Assembly: GCA_008330645.1 (NCBI GenBank)
Contig: VLTN01000004.1
Coordinates: forward strand, 620,001-684,000
DNA: 64,000 nucleotides
Origin: Cafeteria roenbergensis
Lineage: Eukaryota > Sar > Bigyra > Bicosoecida > Cafeteriaceae
Reading direction: 5' to 3'
A program made the translations under genes and the position numbers. The notes beneath the pieces are model-generated. The model worked only from the letters and a program-made list of their open reading frames with translations. It made no database searches and was not told the DNA's origin. This document shows, piece by piece, positions 41,288 through 52,667 of this stretch. Within the stretch, counting starts at the first letter, position 1. Each line of letters starts with the position of its first letter.

Positions 41288-41648
41288 GCCGTCGGAGGCA
41301 AAGGCGCAACCAAGCGGCGTGCCCTCGCCCCAAGCCTGATAGCCGCTGTTCGAGCGCCTTTCCTGAGGAGCAAGCCTGAGTGCACACACACGCCACAACG
41401 CGGAACGGAAAACACCGCACCGGCCGGCAGAGCCGCGACGCGAGGCGCGGACGAGGCCAGACATTCGACCCTTCCCAGCCAAGCGAGACACCTGCCAGCG
41501 CGAGCCAGGCCGGTGGCGAAGAGCCGAGAGCGGGAGCTCCGCAGCAGGGGGCAGCGCGCGGCTCTGCCTGCAGCTAGGGGCCGGCAGAAGGGCTTGTGCC
41601 TGATCGAGCTCGCGTCAGCTTTGCAGTCGTCGACGCAGCAACTGGGCC
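41288..41648. other. Intergenic region upstream of the DNAJC21-like gene
   Basis: 361 bp between two plus-strand genes; 3' UTR of the epimerase and promoter of the DnaJ gene. No motif or coding frame recognised. Confidence 0.4.
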
Positions 41649-43499
41649 ATGGCAGCCGCGTCCGGACGGTCATCGGTGCGCGAGTGTCACTACGATGTGC
41701 TCGCTGTGTCTATGGATGCGACGGACTCTGAAATCCGCAAGGCCTACCGCAAGGCAGCCTTGAAATGGCACCCGGACAAAAACCCGGGACGCGAAGCCGA
41801 AGCCACAGAGCGCATGAAGCTGGTCACCGAAGCATACGGCGTGCTGAGTGACGCGACGGAACGTGCGTGGTATGACGCACACCGGGAGAGCATCCTTCAC
41901 GGCGGCGGGAGCGGGGCCGCCGACTCGACGACGCTGCTGCCCAACCTCTTCACGTTCTTCTCCACCTCCTGCTTCTCGGGCTTTGGGGAGGACAAGGAGG
42001 GCTTCTACTCGGTGTATGCGCGTGCCTTTGACTCTGTCGCGCGCGCCGAAGCGAGGCACCGTCCTCGCGGCTCGGCTGCTCGGGACTGGCCGGCGTTCGG
42101 CACGGCGTCCTCGGAGTGGAGCGACGTTGCTGCGTTTTACCGCAGCTGGACCAACTACGCCAGCGACATGACCTTTGCCTGGGAGGACGCCCACAACACG
42201 AACGAGGCCCCGAACCGCCTCACTCGCCGCTGGATGGAGCGCGAGAACGCCAAGGCCCACCACAAGGCGCGCGAGGAGTGGACTGACTTGGTGCGGACGC
42301 TGGCCAAGTTCGCGCGGAAGCGAGACCCCCGCGTCGCAGCAGAGGCCCAGCGGCTGCGCGAGGAGCGCGAGGCGCGGCAGGCTGCGAGGGAAGCTAGGAA
42401 CGCTGCAGCGAAGGCAGCCGCGGCTGCGAGTGCGGAGGCGCTGGCGCAAGCGGCCGAGGAGTACAGGGAGGAGCTGGAGGCGGCGTCTGGCTTCCGCTTG
42501 GCCGACGAGGGTCCCGCGCGCCGCAAGGGCGAGGACGAGGCCAAGCCTGCCGCGGCGCCGGCTGCCGCTGACAGCGAGGGCGCGGGCGGGAGCGACGAGC
42601 AGGACGATGATGGCGATGGCGATGGCGATGGCGCAGCAGACGGCACGGACGTCACCAGCAAGGCGGACCGCCTGGACGCATTGCTCAAGTCGGTGGACAT
42701 GACCCGCGATGAGCTGTGCGCGGAGTACGAGGCCACTAGGGAGCTCCTTGTCGCCGACGGCTCGTTCAAGGTAACGCGGCACATGGTGCTGGAGACGCTT
42801 CGCGAGGACGGCACGCTGCCGCGAGAGCTGACCGACGGCCTCGCAGCAATGGCGCTCAAGGGGGGGCGACACGGCCAAGCGTCCAGCTCGGCCCCCGGCA
42901 CTGGCGCAGGTGCTGATGTCTCGGCTGCGCCAGATGCCGGCACGCCCGAAACGGTCATCATCCTGGCGGACGACACCGGGGACCAGGCCGCTGCGGCTGC
43001 GGAAGGTGCTGCCGCCTCCGGGGCAGGAGCCGCGCCGAGCGAGCCCGCTGGGGGGGAGGCAGCCGCTGGGGGCGCAGCCCCCGCTGCGGACGGAGACGCC
43101 GCAGAGCCGGCGCCGCCGCAGGGCCGCCCCTGCCGCGTGTGCAACGAGGTGTTCCCGAACGTGCCTGCGCTGCTGGAGCACATCAAGGAGAGCGGGCACC
43201 AGGCCCCCACGTCAGCAGCAAAGCCTGCCGCGGGCTCGGGGAGCGGGAAGCGCCGCAAGGGCAAGGGCGCCAAGGCTGGTGGTGGCGCGTTCGTCTGCGC
43301 TGCGTGCGGACTTGGCTTCCCCACCCGTTCTCGCATGTTCAGGCACTTGGAGGAGACGGGCCACGCAGTGGCGCCGTCCCAAGTGGAAGTGGCTGCATCC
43401 GCAGCAGCCGCGGCGGCTTCGAAAAAGGGCGGCAAGGGGAAAAAGTCGAAGAAGGGCGGCAGGCGCAAGGGCCAGCGCGGCGCCGATGACTCGGATTGA
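41649..43499 (+). CDS. DNAJC21: DNAJC21/Jjj1-type J-domain protein
   Basis: Single exon, 616 residues (TGA). An N-terminal J domain has the Hsp70-stimulating HPD motif (41-43, KWHPDKNPG). It is followed by the Jjj1/DNAJC21-specific block LFTFFSTSCFSGFGEDKEGF and FYSVYARAFD, WEDAHNTNEAPNRLTRRWME, a charged coiled coil, and two C2H2 zinc fingers near residues 495 and 552 (CRVCNEVFPNVPALLEHIKE and CAACGLGFPTRSRMFRHLEE). In yeast and animals this cytosolic co-chaperone helps remove Arx1/Rei1 factors from the pre-60S ribosome. The Ala/Gly/Glu-rich linker (about 290-490) is longer than usual. A lysine-rich C-terminus (KKGGKGKKSKKGGRRKG) fits rRNA contact. Confidence 0.9.
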   Translation: MAAASGRSSVRECHYDVLAVSMDATDSEIRKAYRKAALKWHPDKNPGREAEATERMKLVTEAYGVLSDATERAWYDAHRESILHGGGSGAADSTTLLPNLFTFFSTSCFSGFGEDKEGFYSVYARAFDSVARAEARHRPRGSAARDWPAFGTASSEWSDVAAFYRSWTNYASDMTFAWEDAHNTNEAPNRLTRRWMERENAKAHHKAREEWTDLVRTLAKFARKRDPRVAAEAQRLREEREARQAAREARNAAAKAAAAASAEALAQAAEEYREELEAASGFRLADEGPARRKGEDEAKPAAAPAAADSEGAGGSDEQDDDGDGDGDGAADGTDVTSKADRLDALLKSVDMTRDELCAEYEATRELLVADGSFKVTRHMVLETLREDGTLPRELTDGLAAMALKGGRHGQASSSAPGTGAGADVSAAPDAGTPETVIILADDTGDQAAAAAEGAAASGAGAAPSEPAGGEAAAGGAAPAADGDAAEPAPPQGRPCRVCNEVFPNVPALLEHIKESGHQAPTSAAKPAAGSGSGKRRKGKGAKAGGGAFVCAACGLGFPTRSRMFRHLEETGHAVAPSQVEVAASAAAAAASKKGGKGKKSKKGGRRKGQRGADDSD

Positions 43500-43589: not shown

Positions 43590-44564
43590 TCACAGCCCGG
43601 GGGCGCGCATGTCAAGGAACTGGCAAGCTTCGCCGTAGGAGCCTGCCATGCACGAGCAAGTGCCCGTTTGGTGGTCGCAAACACCGCGGTTGGAACACGA
43701 CACGTGGCACTTGTTGCCCACCGCTCCAGCGTTGACGTACTGGCCAGCCGGGGGCACAGTCCCGTGCACAACAGTGCCTGCTGCTGGCACGTTGGACGAG
43801 TAGTCCGGGTTGCCATCTGCATCGACCTGGCCCCGCCACACAGTCCCGTTTCTGTCTTTGAGGTGGCAGTTGGTCTCGTCGAGCCAGTCATGGTGCGCCA
43901 GCATTCCCGTGTCGCGGACCGTGCGAGGGTCGTCTCCGCTTGGGCACCGCTTGAGCGAGCAGTCGTGACCGAAGTATTCCGCGGCTTGGGTCTCCCCTGG
44001 CCCGTAGCCAACTGGCCACCGGGAGTCGCACACGCAGCCAAAGATCCGGTCTTGGTCGAACGTGAAGGAGCCTTCCGCGCCACCGTAGTTTGCATCGTTG
44101 TGGCCAAAAGGCATTGCGTTTGCCATTGCCTGCATCTGGCGAATCGACACGCACTTGCCGTGCCCACTACAATCGGACGGGCAGGCCGAGCGCTGGCAGG
44201 CCTCCCCGGTGAACCCGGCAAGGCAGCTGCAGGTCCCGGAGAGCCGATTGCACACGCCCATGTTGGAGCACTCAGCGAGCTGAGAGTGCGCCAGGGTCGG
44301 GGAGGTTGGAATGCCCACCCATGCCCTGCCCGCCGGGCAAGTCCGAAACCGGCAGTCTGGACTCTTGAAGGCGGCGATATCAGACTCGCTCCCCCACCCG
44401 TCTTGGCAGTCGCACGTTCCTGTGACCCCATTGCATGTGCCATGGCTTGAGCAAAGGTTCAGCGTCAGGCAGGGAACGCCGCTGACGGACTGGCTCGTTG
44501 GCTGAGCCTGGCACGCCAGGCCGAGGAGCGCGGCGGCCGCGCAGGCCAAACTTGCGACACGCAT
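43590..44564 (-). CDS. Secreted EGF-like repeat protein of stramenopile type
   Basis: Single exon, 324 residues from the ATG at 44564. An N-terminal signal peptide (MRVASLACAAAALLGLACQA) precedes Cys-rich modules of EGF pattern: CSSHGTCNGVTGTCDC, CSNMGVCNRLSGTCSCLAGF, SDCSGHGKC and CSNRGVCDHQTGTCSC. Between them lie segments of the form RTCPAGRAW and KRCPSGDDPRT, a combination common in secreted proteins of diatoms, oomycetes and other stramenopiles. Such proteins are found in cell-surface coats and in mastigonemes (flagellar hairs), which is a possible but unproven role. The upstream neighbour on the same strand is another large extracellular Cys-rich protein. It is not similar to animal growth factors beyond the EGF spacing. 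Confidence 0.78.
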   Translation of the reverse strand: MRVASLACAAAALLGLACQAQPTSQSVSGVPCLTLNLCSSHGTCNGVTGTCDCQDGWGSESDIAAFKSPDCRFRTCPAGRAWVGIPTSPTLAHSQLAECSNMGVCNRLSGTCSCLAGFTGEACQRSACPSDCSGHGKCVSIRQMQAMANAMPFGHNDANYGGAEGSFTFDQDRIFGCVCDSRWPVGYGPGETQAAEYFGHDCSLKRCPSGDDPRTVRDTGMLAHHDWLDETNCHLKDRNGTVWRGQVDADGNPDYSSNVPAAGTVVHGTVPPAGQYVNAGAVGNKCHVSCSNRGVCDHQTGTCSCMAGSYGEACQFLDMRAPGL

Positions 44565-44855: not shown

Positions 44856-47800
44856 CTACGGCTGCCCCGAGTCAACCAAGCGCTCGGAGCTCAGGCCTCG
44901 GCTTGCCGACACGGCAGAGGAGCCAGGGCGACCGATTGGGTTCTCGAACTGAATCGTGCTCGCGTGCGACCTTGCGTCGTCATCGCGGGCTTGCCCTTGG
45001 AGCGATGGTGGCGGCACTCGGCCCCCAGCCGACGGGGCAACGCGAACTGTGTGCCGCCGCGGAGCCGCCGCCGCCGCGGGGGGTGGGGGGCGAGGCGGGC
45101 GGGGCTGGCGCACGGGCCGTGCGTCGCGCGTGGAGCTTGCTCCAGCTGCGGCGCCGTATGGGGCAGAGGAGCTCGCAAGCGCCCCTGCCAGGGCAGGCGC
45201 GCGCTCCTCGCTTGCGCTTGCCGCCTCTCGCGTCGCTCCCTGCCCGTCTGCGGCCGCCAGCTCGTCCGTCCAGGCCGCAATGTCCCGGCGGCAGAGGGGG
45301 CACTCCGTCGCGGTGCTGAAGTACTGCACCCCCAAGTGGTAGGTGAGCTGGTGGTCGCACGGCAGCCGCATGATGAACTGCCCCTCGCTGAACTCCTCCA
45401 TGCTGATAATGCACTCTGTGTTGCGGGCCTCGACGCTCTCGCAGTCCGCCTTGTGGAAAGGGATGGCTGGAAGCTGCTCCAGCTGATGGTTTGCCAGCCC
45501 GCGGCGAACCGGCACCATCTCGGCCTCCGCAAACGCCTGTTCCTCCTGCTGCTGCCGTACAAGCATGGCGCGCGCCGCAATGCCGCATGCGCCCCCCACC
45601 ACCAGCGCAAGCACACTGAGCAGAACAACAACAACGACCACCACGTCCTCCGAGTCGTCGCCTGGTGGCGAAGGGAGCGCCGCTGCGAGAAAGTTGCACA
45701 ATCAGCAGGCGGGCAACAGAGAATGCAAGACTCGAGACGGATGGCGCGCAAGGCAGGACCAGGGGCGTCAGGACAGCGAGCGGGCGGGTGGGGGGGGGGA
45801 GGGGTTGGGGGACGGAGGCACAGTTGGGCGAACGCACCAGTGCTGGCCGCTGATGAAACAACAGGCGGGCCCGTGGATCCCGAGGGCAGCGGCCCGGGGG
45901 AGCGCGTGGTTCTGTCCCCCGCACCGCCCGTTGCGGACGCGCCGGCGCTCGCTGAGGGCGGCACGAGAACAGGGCAAGACAGAGCAAGAGGGCAGGCGGT
46001 GAGGGCAGAGGCAGGGTGCCTCGAAGGGATGGGGCAAGGCGAGGGGGGCGGGCCGTGCGAACGAGCTCGTGAGCGCCGCCGGTCCGGGCGGCTGGGCGAC
46101 CAAACATTTTGGTTGGAGCGCCTGGGCTCGAGGGCGCGAGAGCGCGGAGGCGCTGGGGCGCTGGGGCGCGGAGGGCGCATGGGCATGCCACTGCAGACTC
46201 ACGCGAAGGCAGCGCGGAAAAACCGGGCGTCGGGCTCGGAGTTGGGCAGGACACCCCGGGGCCGAAGCAGATGCCATTGCAGTCCTTGGCTGCGTTGGCA
46301 GTCTTGCCCGTGGTTCCCCCGGAGCAAACTCCGCAGTCGTCGACCGCAGCGGCACCCAAGCAGCGGCCCGTGCAGTCGACCCCGCGTCCCCCACCGTTGC
46401 ATATTCCTGCGAAAGCGGGCAATGCACACCAGCACGCGGCGAGGGGAGTGAGCTGCGAGCGACGGACGGGCGGCGGCACAGCGAAACAGTGCATGGCGCT
46501 GCTCAACAGCCACACGCGCAGAGGTCGGCTCACCGCACTGGTCGCAGGAGCTGAGGGGCGACATGTCGCAACCGCACACGGTCGACGAGTTGGCCGGCAA
46601 GACCGTAAACATGAGGGTGTGCGCAGCAACCACTAGGCCGGTTCCGAGCGACTCGGCAAGCTTGCGGCGGCCTTGCTGCAGAACGGCGAGGTTTGGCAGA
46701 GACAGCAGACTGCCAACCAGAGGCGGAACAGCCCTTGAGCGGGAAACAGCCGCCGAAGCAGCAGCGGGGGCGCCAAGCCTGCGGCGAGAAGTGGTGTTGG
46801 CAGTCGCGTTGGCTGTGGCCGTTGCAGACGCTGGTGACGCCGATTGCGACGGCGAAGCCGATTGCGACGGCGAGGCTGAAGGCCAGGCAGAGGGGGACGC
46901 CAGCGAGGAATTGTCGACGGCAAGCGCCCCCACGACAGAGAGGTCCAAGACGAAGCTGCCGTCTGGAGCCGGGCCGCCGACGCTTGCAAAGCGCGGCTCG
47001 GTGCCAGCGCCGGCTCTCCCGGCGGTCACTTGCCAGCCAGAGGCATTGAGCGCCGCGAGATCCCGTGCCAGGTCGGCAGAGGCGACCGTGGCGTTGACAG
47101 GGAGCGCGAGCGCAAGCGTGACGGGTATCGTCACCCCCTCCGGGCCCTCAGACCCGGCCGAGGAGTCGAGCTCGGCTGCTTCCAGTGGCACCACGCATTC
47201 TGCAACCTGGGCGGACGGATCGCCGGTGCGCGCAGTCGACGACGGCGACGACGTGATGACTGAGGCCTCCACGACGTGCTTCCCGAAGATGCAGAGCAGC
47301 CTCGCCCCGGAAGAGGTCGCTCCCAGACCAATCCCGCAGCCGAAACCTGGCCAGTGGACGCGCACCACCGTCCCGGGAGGCCCGCAGCGCGGGGAGAGGC
47401 AGGCCACGGTGCCCACGCTGCAAAATCCCGCCTGGGCGTTGGTGCGGACCGAGGAGGCGGCCATTTCCACGCTTGTCGCATCGTCCAGCGCAACGTCACC
47501 CATTGCGCTCGCCCCGGTGACGAAGCCCCGCGCCACGTCGAGGGCGCCGTCGCGTGCCTCCGCCGGCGACTCGCCAAGTGCCCGGATCCCAGAGAACCAC
47601 TCTGTCGAGTTTGGCGGGCCAGGCACATCTCCCATGGCAAAGCGCACACTGCCGTCCGGGAAGATGCACATCGTCGTGGTCCAGCGCGGGTCGGTCGGCT
47701 CGGGGGCAAAGCTGAACAGCGGCAGCCTGTCCCATCGCACGCACACGAAGTCGGTCGCGTTGCGCACATAAACGTTGGCCGTTGCCGACTGGGCAGGGTT

Positions 47801-49789
47801 CCAGTCGGAGATGAGCGGCCCGATGATGCCCCGGTACCCCGTCCGAATCGTGCAGGCGCCGGATCCAAAGTAGCCGCCGCAAGGGGACTGCTCCGTGACC
47901 TTGACGTAGCCGTTGGCGCCCAGAAACAGCGTGGACACGTTGCTAGTGCTGTAAAACGGGAAGGCGAACCCGAGGGGCAGCCGGTCGAGGGGTGAGTCGT
48001 CCACCTCTGAGACTGGCGACCACATGTCCTGCGGAAGCGTGCCGACGGGCTGGACCGGCATTGGCAGGAGCGCGGCCGATCGGCGCGGGAGCGGGAGGAA
48101 CTGCCGGTCGCCAACGAGGTCCCTCAGCGCCGAAGCCTCGGGCGCGGACTGGCACCTTCCCGTGGGCACAGCGGCGCAGCACCCGGCGAGGCACTTTGCG
48201 CTGTAGCACACGCCGTCGATGCCAGCCACCAGGCTGGCCGCACCGGGACTCCCGCTCGCCAAGCAGTCGGCGTCCGTTGCGCAGAATCCCGGGGAACCGA
48301 AGAAGGCGGCGACGGGAAGGGGGCGGCTGTACCAGGCAGCCGGGTTGTCGATGCGCTCGAACGGCCACGACCCGCCGGAGGGCGCCAGCCCCGCCGCAGA
48401 CGCCTCAGCGGAGTTGCGGAACACGCCGCCACCGCCCCATGGCCAGCGAAGCTGCTCGCTCGGCAGCAAGGGCGCGCTGGACCCGGGAGGCGAGCCCCTG
48501 GGCACTGCTGCCGGGGGACTGAATCCGGGAGCCACGACTGCCTCGGTGAGGTTGCTGATGCCGGCTGCCAGGCCCGTGGACGCTGATCGCTGGGAATCGA
48601 CGCGCGAGTCCGAAACCACGACGTCGAGGAAGCCGGCCGCAGGGCAGAACCCGGGCGGAAGGTCGCACTCGATGCGGCTGTTGCCCATGCCAGGCGCAGG
48701 CTTGTAGCTGGCCTTGGAGGCGTCAGAGCAGAGCGGCGCGTCGTCGAGAATGTCCCCATTCAGGCACATGAAGAAAACGGATTGCCCCGAGGCGCGCTGC
48801 ACCGGGAAGCACTGGGTTCCGCAGGGGCACTCGCCGTTGGCGTCGCACACGGGCGCGCAGACCGACTTGGCGGGGCCGGTTGACGACGTGCGAAGTGCGA
48901 TGCACGTCTTGCCGGTGTCGCAGTCCAAGTCGGAGTTACAAGACTCGCACATGCGGTGGCAGATGGTGGGGTTTGCGCACGACTGGCCGCCCACGACGAC
49001 GGCCACGTCGGCCGGCTCGTTTCCAAGGTCGAACCCGTCGACAACCACGGACATGGTCGCCGTGTGGGCATTGTCGGAGAAGTACGAGAGGTTCAGCGCC
49101 GGGGACAGCGTCCGCGGGGGGTCGCCCGTTGCCGATGCGCGGCCTCCGTGGAGGGCCGTGACAACCGGCGGCGCTGGCGGCGACCCGGGGTACGCAGCCT
49201 CCCCAGGGGACAGGGGCCGGGTGCATGTATACAGCGGCCGCAGAGGTAGTCCCGTCGGTCCCTGCTTCTCCGCGGCGAGCCATCCGTGGTTGGTGTAGGT
49301 TGACCCGCCGACGAAATTTGTGCTGCACGCAAACCCGGAGCCCTTGATGGTGTTTGCCTGTCCGCACCATGCCGAGGGCACGCAGCACCCATCCAGGGAC
49401 GCCGCGCCGGAGGGCGCGCTGCTTGCGTTGCTGAGACCGGCGGCAAGCGCCGCAACCAGCTGCAAGTCCCAAGTTGCGGACGCCAAGGACACCTGCTTCG
49501 TCGTGGCCACAAGCCCAAACCGCGTGCAAGCAGCATCATGCGGCTCTAACAAGCTGCGCACCACTTGTGAGCCCGCCCCAGCGCAGTCTGCTTGACCGAG
49601 CGGGGCAAGCGCCAGGACCCAGTAAAGCCCGTCGGCAAACACAGGTCCGGCCGGCTCTGAGGAGTTGGCACCGGCCGAAACGCTTCGCACGCAGTGAGAG
49701 GCTGCAATCCCGCAGGCAACCAGTCTCAGCAGCGAGCACGGGGCCCTCCTCCGGGCAAGCGCCCTGGCCCGCTGCGGCACAGACGCCAT
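44856..49789 (-). CDS. Large single-pass membrane protein with IPT/NIDO-like ectodomain and cytosolic degenerate RING
   Basis: Three minus-strand exons: 46534-49789, 46203-46406 and 44856-45682 (1,428 residues, TAG); the joins give CDQCGICNGG and ALPSPALPSPPGDD. Start at 49789 gives a basic, hydrophobic signal-like N-terminus (RRRAPCSLLRLVACGIAAS). The ectodomain is Cys-rich: a NIDO-like block near 600 (GFAFPFYSTSNVSTLFLGAN, WTTTMCIFPDGSVRFAMGD), an IPT/TIG-like block near 790 (CGPPGTVVRVHWPGFGCG) and a DCGVCSGGTT module before the membrane. The span is about 1167-1190. The cytosolic tail has a RING-like motif: C1244, C1262, H1264, H1269, C1281, C1284, but S1247 and V1272 replace two ligands. 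Likely a cell-surface receptor or adhesion protein whose tail may act in ubiquitination. The 520-bp last intron is the longest in the window. Confidence 0.75.
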
Positions 49790-50137
49790 GAGCGTTGCCA
49801 GAATGTCGCCTCGGAAATGCACGCAGGCCCAGAGCCCGGCACTGGCTCGCCAGCCGTCGTCAGCCCCCCGCCCCAAACCCGGGCAACGCTCGAATGCCTG
49901 GAGTGGTGCGACGCTCGCAGGCGCTCCGATTGGCTGCGGGGGGGGGCTTCCCACGAGTGGGCTACGCGAGGCGAGCTGGCTCGTGCTGCTGCTCCTGCGC
50001 TCATATTTGCCGCAGGGCGGACATGGCACTGTCGCTCCGCGGCTCTGCTTCAGGTGGCGGGCCGGCGCAGGCGCTCGCGACATAGCGCACCGGCGAGGCG
50101 CCCGCCGAGCCAGCAGCCGCAGCAGCGACGCGCTTGG
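49790..50137. other. Divergent intergenic region (RING membrane protein / DHFR-TS)
   Basis: 348 bp between opposite start codons. Frames remain open through it on both strands, so either gene could start slightly further upstream (minus-strand frame to 50083, plus-strand frame to 49694), but the chosen ATGs give a signal peptide and a normal DHFR start region. Confidence 0.4.

Positions 50138-52667
<2,530 letters not shown>

Follow-up and report, generated by a model that had tools for sequence, protein, structure and literature searches.

Introduction

In the plant RMR proteins an ectodomain, a transmembrane span and a RING domain follow one another along a chain that works in sorting, and the RING of RMR1 holds two zinc ions (PMC12552968). 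ZNRF3 and RNF43 share this order and serve in receptor turnover. MGRN1 works with transmembrane adapters, and the MEGF8–MGRN1 pair ubiquitinates partner receptors (PMC12752501). Plant ATL proteins combine a membrane helix, a conserved pre-RING GLD motif and a RING-H2 domain, and are reportedly confined to plants (PMC5764321). Here we describe a three-exon gene on the minus strand of a 64,000-nucleotide stretch of the genome of Cafeteria roenbergensis (assembly GCA_008330645.1, contig VLTN01000004.1, positions 620,001 to 684,000; hereafter the window, from whose first letter coordinates are counted). Its exons join in phase to encode 1,428 residues, and the predicted product carries a Cys-rich ectodomain, a single span and a RING from which one of two zinc sites appears to have been nearly removed.

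In TRIM32 zinc site I is formed by ligands 1, 2, 5 and 6 and site II by ligands 3, 4, 7 and 8 (PMC3797097); RMR1 shows the same division (PMC12552968). RINGs with a single zinc are already known among SUMO ligases and in Gid2. The SP-RINGs keep the site distal to the ubiquitin-conjugating enzyme (E2), and the UBR4 hemiRING keeps the opposite, proximal one (PMC10873205). Gid2/RMND5 is an active ubiquitin ligase (E3) with one zinc; its S2 ligands are conserved, and its S1 site has a single cysteine, with serine elsewhere (PMC9180843, PMC3797097).

Results

Near-Removal of One Zinc Site

The RING of the window gene is recognised by the Pfam family zf-RING_2 (PF13639) at E 4.2e-6 and 27.4 bits, marginally above the cut-off of 27.3. 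In a genome search with the same profile it scores 31.0 bits, and against a profile made from 13 canonical RINGs of the genome it scores 34.4, where the best of 500 shuffled sequences (497 reported) reached 8.5. Its register is consistent among alignments: the match to the 13-RING profile is gap-free with a mean posterior of 0.98, the PF13639 match sets 43 residues on 43 positions, and the alignment with RLIM has gaps only upstream of the first RING cysteine.

In this register the eight ligand columns are occupied by C1244, S1247, C1262, H1264, T1267, L1270, C1281 and C1284. The eight-ligand C3H2C3 pattern of RING-H2 domains is not found; the columns of the window RING read C, S, C, H, T, L, C, C, with five of eight ligands kept. 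One of these (C1244) belongs to site I and four (C1262, H1264, C1281 and C1284) make up the whole of site II, and all three losses (S1247, T1267 and L1270) fall within site I, the E2-proximal zinc site. An earlier note on this DNA had described a RING with six ligands, S1247 and V1272 being the replacements. Residue S1247 does stand in column 2, but V1272 is not a ligand position: columns 5 and 6 are T1267 and L1270. A gapped register with an H-x4-H spacing, in which four residues separate the ligand 4 His from a His read as ligand 5 and V1272 would become ligand 6, was considered and rejected; it requires a two-residue insertion and a compensating deletion, and the alignments with RLIM and the 13-RING profile show no gap anywhere between C1244 and C1284.

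Judged from the residues in the ligand columns, the losses are the near-removal of one zinc site and not two scattered replacements. The RING thus shares its metal pattern with Gid2/RMND5, while its sequence stands nearest to the RING-H2 ligases. The domain probably holds one zinc instead of two, and H1269, which adjoins ligand column 6, could in principle help to hold zinc. The putative E2 contacts I1246 and P1282 and the putative linchpin R1285 are retained.

Putative One-Zinc RINGs Elsewhere in the Genome

The genome searched comprises 36,303,456 bases in 167 contigs. PF13639, a profile that disfavours RINGs lacking site I, found at least 42 RING places. Ligand columns were counted after the 42 had been aligned to the 13-sequence profile, whose own 13 members are among them and fit it by construction; 13 of the 42 rows miss a column and were omitted. 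Among the 29 rows with all eight columns, 23 keep every ligand, three have a complete site I and three of four ligands in site II, and three keep a single one of the four site I ligands beside a complete site II. No row keeps two or three of the site I ligands. Of the three rows with a gap in site II, two resemble, by reading, C4HC3 types with the fourth ligand elsewhere. The site-I-less rows are those of the window, C47:241328 and C21:177857. A fourth such RING, at C39:133340, was excluded from the count; it has T, Q and S in columns 2, 5 and 6, and its column 1, which lies beyond the alignment, is D by eye.

A hydrophobic segment occurs within at most 160 in-frame residues before the RING in eight of the 42, as scored by a hydropathy count and not a topology program: in three of the four site-I-less RINGs (window, C47 and C39) versus five of the 38 others, many of which were scored over shorter stretches. 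From the start of the span to the RING match there are 75 residues in the window, 91 in C47 and 154 in C39. The C47 protein is encoded in a single 2,435-residue open frame, which combines a signal-peptide-like start, a long ectodomain, a span and the RING. Its MSLLFGVLLGLAACSS stands at residue 71, 65 cysteines follow that methionine, and the span lies at about residue 2029; the ectodomain has an FN3 match of 21.9 bits, below the cut-off of 25, and Cys repeats that by reading are PSI-like. C39 has a span and a RING, its incompletely modelled lumenal part showing no clear Pfam family. No span was found in the 1,321-residue frame of C21. At C48:57756 Kelch repeats, a span and a canonical RING lie in one frame, for which a clear start or signal peptide was sought and not found; this arrangement is like attractin plus its ligase partner in one chain. 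The best other genome match of the C47 RING is the C48 RING (45%, E 1.8e-8), and those of the C39 RING are C47 and C21.

All four site-I-less RINGs of the genome keep the Ile that follows ligand 1, the Pro, and a basic residue at the linchpin, which is Arg or, in C47, Lys. A viral contig (IMGVR_UViG_3300044628_002585; 19 kb, AT-rich by eye) encodes a repeat-rich protein, by eye of leucine-rich-repeat type, that ends in a site-I-less RING; its columns read by eye as C, S, C, H, L, S, C, C. Of 14 stretches in viral contigs that match the pattern, this one encodes a relative. Across the five sequences, which are short, the Ile after ligand 1, C3, H4, C7, P and C8 are invariant.

The RING at C32:374586-374663 (CSVK...CGHSFSAAAV...CPIC), a zf-Nse match that is not among the 42, also seems short of site I ligands, and scores 19.5 bits against the canonical profile, the best of 500 shuffles reaching 11.6. 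It lies in a protein whose C-terminus we take to resemble that of the histone ligase Bre1, and loss of site I would be striking in so conserved a ligase. Further genome matches to zf-Nse outside the 42 RINGs lie at C2:661775, C2:777806 and C5:709783, which resemble U-box types by eye, and at C20:423036 and C1:1270763.

Gene Model

The coordinates, strand, two joins and length of the gene hold up, with GT–AG introns that are both of phase 1 and coding scores that favour the claimed frames (Table 1). Codon scores were trained on exon 1 and applied to the other exons and the introns. Exon 2 scores +0.295 in the claimed frame versus −0.111 and −0.255 in the other frames of its strand, and exon 3 scores +0.201 versus −0.27 and −0.35; on the opposite strand a single frame of exon 3 rises slightly above zero (+0.092), and the tail taken by itself reaches just +0.072. 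Each intron is negative in all six frames. The window is about 70% G+C.

Table 1. Features of the window gene (positions in the window)
Feature	Positions	Strand	Basis
Exon 1, signal peptide and most of ectodomain, residues 1–1085	46534..49789	-	model, translation, codon positions
Putative signal peptide, residues 1–40, weak core LLRLVACGIAA	49670..49789	-	hydropathy only, no signal-peptide program
Cys-rich stretch, about residues 270–375, without Pfam family	48665..48982	-	translation, Pfam scan
Presumed NIDO stretch of the earlier note, about residues 590–770, no profile match	47480..48022	-	Pfam, genome search, fold
Intron 1, GT–AG, 127 nucleotides, phase 1	46407..46533	-	model; negative codon scores
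Exon 2, Cys module and Pro/Ser stalk	46203..46406	-	model; in-frame codon score +0.295
Intron 2, GT–AG, 520 nucleotides, phase 1	45683..46202	-	model; negative codon scores
Exon 3, span, RING and tail, stop included	44856..45682	-	model, codon scores
Transmembrane span, residues 1167–1185	45588..45644	-	hydropathy 3.12
Pre-RING motif RGLANHQLEQLPAIPF, residues 1214–1229, aligned with RLIM RGLTKEQIDNLAMRSF	45456..45503	-	alignment
Putative one-zinc-type RING, residues 1243–1285	45288..45416	-	Pfam, RLIM alignment, genome profile
Pro/Ala-rich cytosolic tail, residues 1286–1428, one NP[LI] motif (ENPI)	44859..45287	-	model, motif count

It is improbable that two genes have been joined here, one for a secreted Cys-rich protein (exon 1 and perhaps exon 2) and another for a small RING protein (exon 3). 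The joins are known from sequence alone, and the frame of exon 1 does continue beyond the donor to a stop at 46199; against this, the introns are matched in phase, the coding scores favour the claimed frames, and the exon 3 frame has no Met upstream of the span. Moreover, the first join restores a Cys motif (CDQCG|ICNGGG) that crosses from exon 1 into the exon 2 module CDQCG|ICNGGG...DDCGVCSGG...DCNGICFG; the second sits within the Pro/Ser-rich stalk. Because the C47 protein runs from a signal-peptide-like start through ectodomain and span to the RING without a break in its open frame, the objection that the RING exon belongs to a separate gene is weakened, and such an origin of the window exon appears less likely. 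Ectodomain and RING exons very probably form a single gene.

Ectodomain and Tail

The receptor-like chain of the earlier note, with Cys-rich ectodomain, single span and RING tail, is supported by 54 cysteines in the first 1,150 residues, by one strong span and by the RING profile matches. The signal peptide is weak, with a hydropathy peak of 2.1 over 11 residues. All 13 N-glycosylation sequons lie N-terminal of the span.

The IPT and NIDO labels attached to the ectodomain fared less well, and were dropped for want of a PF01833 or PF06119 profile match. Pfam finds nothing in exon 1 to E 10 apart from a chance match at 5.7 (the HMMER filters discard most weak matches), and in the three exons together the families found are RING families of exon 3. 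A search of PDB sequences with exon 1 gave no match to E 5. The TIG/IPT profile (PF01833) has many matches in the genome, none within the gene among the matches listed for the 150 of 250 candidates that were scored. The NIDO profile (PF06119) matched nothing anywhere in the genome, its controls being equally unmatched. Most of the NIDO-like stretch, folded from the single sequence, gives a beta-rich model of low confidence, with a predicted local distance difference test (pLDDT) score of 40.8. The ectodomain may still have a diverged IPT/NIDO fold. A 273-residue middle part of it matches only itself in the genome (four candidates scored). The available part of an expression paper on bacterivory (PMC7852580) holds nothing on this gene.

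In the tail, the NP[LI] motif accounts for every asparagine after the RING, one of one in the window and three of three in C47 (by eye), and for none of the 33 (window) and 37 (C47) asparagines before the cytosolic parts; it is possibly a sorting signal. Scarcity of lysine in the tail was considered as an E3 hallmark and discarded: there is one Lys past residue 1170, but the whole protein has only 14 in 1,428, hence the feature is not telling.

Neighbouring Genes

On the minus strand, 43593-44564 holds a separate gene for a secreted-looking protein with teneurin-type EGF repeats. On the plus strand, 41604-43499 encodes a DnaJ protein that carries two C2H2 zinc fingers and looks by eye like DNAJC21, and frames at 50136-52653, divergent from the RING gene, resemble by eye a bifunctional dihydrofolate reductase–thymidylate synthase.

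Discussion

Proposed Function

The reading that we tentatively favour over the others, at slightly under an even chance, is that of a type I membrane E3 responsible for the turnover of whatever binds to its ectodomain. The ectodomain would face the outside or a lumen and bind a partner, and the cytosolic tail would present a RING-H2-derived domain that has lost site I and kept site II. This RING would recruit E2-bound ubiquitin through I1246, P1282 and R1285, and the bound partner, or the protein itself, would be marked for endocytosis or sorting, as with ZNRF3/RNF43, plant RMR and MEGF8–MGRN1. Membrane orientation, zinc count, E2 binding, catalysis and substrate are points that we infer. That the RING is catalytically active as an E3 seems an evenly balanced matter: E2 use is argued for because Ile, Pro and Arg are retained, and decay because Tyr (Y1274) replaces the Trp and the score is marginal.

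Several observations weigh against the proposal. The RING barely clears the Pfam cut-off, and besides the change of Trp the Phe ahead of ligand 5 has become Leu. Since site I adjoins the E2 in an ordinary RING, a domain that lacks it could fail to bind the E2. The AlphaFold model of the RING from the single sequence is poor (pLDDT 48.8), the signal peptide is weak, and the gene and its layout are known from the sequence of one genome. The window RING is also the most degenerate of the four site-I-less RINGs, with the lowest score, and its ties to the others are loose. The exon 3 protein matches six other RINGs of the genome at E 7e-4 to 0.006, C21 among them, and does not reach C47 or C39 at E 0.01 (13 candidates scored); as queries, C47 reaches the window only at E 0.0115 and C39 does not reach it at E 0.1.

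Some of these features would suit a binding-only descendant, a RING without catalysis whose role in the tail of an adhesin or surface receptor would be that of a scaffold or a module for dimerisation. MAEA/Gid9, which is RING-like, binds no zinc alone and acts with Gid2/RMND5, offers a precedent (PMC3797097, PMC9180843), and three of the four site I ligands are gone, along with the Trp, from the weakest-scoring of the four genome RINGs. Site II, however, is complete, and the retention of the Ile, the Pro and the basic linchpin in the window RING and in the three others speaks against this reading; we regard the binding-only state as unlikely, though a serious contender.

In SP-RINGs the E2-distal zinc site is the only one kept (PMC10873205), and a further reading is that of a SUMO-type ligase with this metal pattern that uses the SUMO E2. 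The C47 RING clears the zf-Nse cut-off in a genome search (27.9 versus 27.0 bits), but the C47 protein reaches only 22.4 bits in hmmscan, below that cut-off. Neither zf-Nse nor zf-MIZ matches the window RING, the best of its relatives with solved structures are RING-H2 ligases for ubiquitin, and a membrane tail would be an unusual location for a SUMO ligase. A SUMO-type function is improbable.

Common Origin or Parallel Loss

Compared pairwise, the window and C47 proteins align only in the juxtamembrane region and RING (25%, 38.5 bits, E 8.4e-6 in a two-sequence comparison). Homology of the ectodomains was rejected; other matches are at most 24.3 bits, within the shuffled range (best of 20 shuffles, 25.8 bits). 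Because neither C47 nor C39 is reached from the window RING at E 0.01, parallel loss is possible, and site I may have disappeared independently in the window RING.

A wider proposal, which we put forward as a speculation and think rather unlikely, is that these proteins form a set of receptor-ligases in which ectodomains are swapped on a chassis of span and one-zinc RING: single-chain counterparts of MEGF8/attractin–MGRN1 by which a predatory protist would couple the recognition of prey or partners outside the cell to ubiquitination within it. The set would comprise the one-zinc form in the window (Cys-rich ectodomain), C47 (FN3, PSI-like) and C39, and a two-zinc form in C48 (Kelch).

Implications

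Among the matches listed from searches of the open-access literature, none of them aimed at exactly this combination, no one-zinc RING is described on a membrane receptor. Should these RINGs prove active, the E2-proximal zinc site would be dispensable in a stand-alone membrane ligase, and the proteins would offer a handle on the link between surface recognition and ubiquitin in unicellular predators. With four such natural variants and canonical RINGs side by side in the same genome, what replaces the missing zinc could be put to the test.

Comparison with Known Systems

The closest solved sequences are those of RLIM, RNF38, Arkadia and RNF165. RLIM shares the pre-RING GL...QL..LP...F motif and aligns without gaps over the RING, but has eight ligands, as seen in the alignment; RNF38, Arkadia and RNF165 also have eight, and all four proteins are soluble. 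The plant ATL proteins are like the window protein in their membrane helix, pre-RING motif and RING-H2 domain; they differ in having eight ligands and in being found in plants only. Their N-terminal part is small, with no large ectodomain.

In layout the nearest systems are the RMR and animal PA-TM-RING ligases (RNF13, ZNRF3/RNF43), with a type I ectodomain, a single span and a RING-H2-type domain. The window protein likewise has one span and then a RING, in a predicted cytosolic orientation. It differs in that these ligases have a lumenal protease-associated (PA) domain and, in RMR1, two zincs, whereas its site I is lost and Pfam finds no PA match in its ectodomain; it is not a member of that family. 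Membrane E3s with the order ectodomain–span–RING are well known (RMR, ZNRF3/RNF43); the earlier note, which knew of no described family with its order of domains, may be right for the particular ectodomain of the window protein.

Two systems share the single-zinc pattern. SP-RINGs (Siz/PIAS, Nse2) keep only the E2-distal site, which is site II, and the window sequence has one of four ligands in site I and four of four in site II; they are SUMO ligases, unlike the window RING, which lacks their profile matches. Gid2/RMND5 has its single zinc in site S2, with the first Cys kept and Ser at ligand 2. It is not the closest sequence, however, and belongs as a subunit to a large complex in which it has a RING-like partner. 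It is soluble and has LisH, CTLH and CRA domains. None of these is matched by the exon 1, 2 or 3 proteins in Pfam, which places the window protein outside the Gid2 family.

MEGF8/attractin–MGRN1 resembles the window protein in coupling a large single-pass ectodomain to a RING. The window ectodomain has no EGF or Kelch match in Pfam, though C48 has Kelch repeats, and what is divided between two chains in animals is here combined in one.

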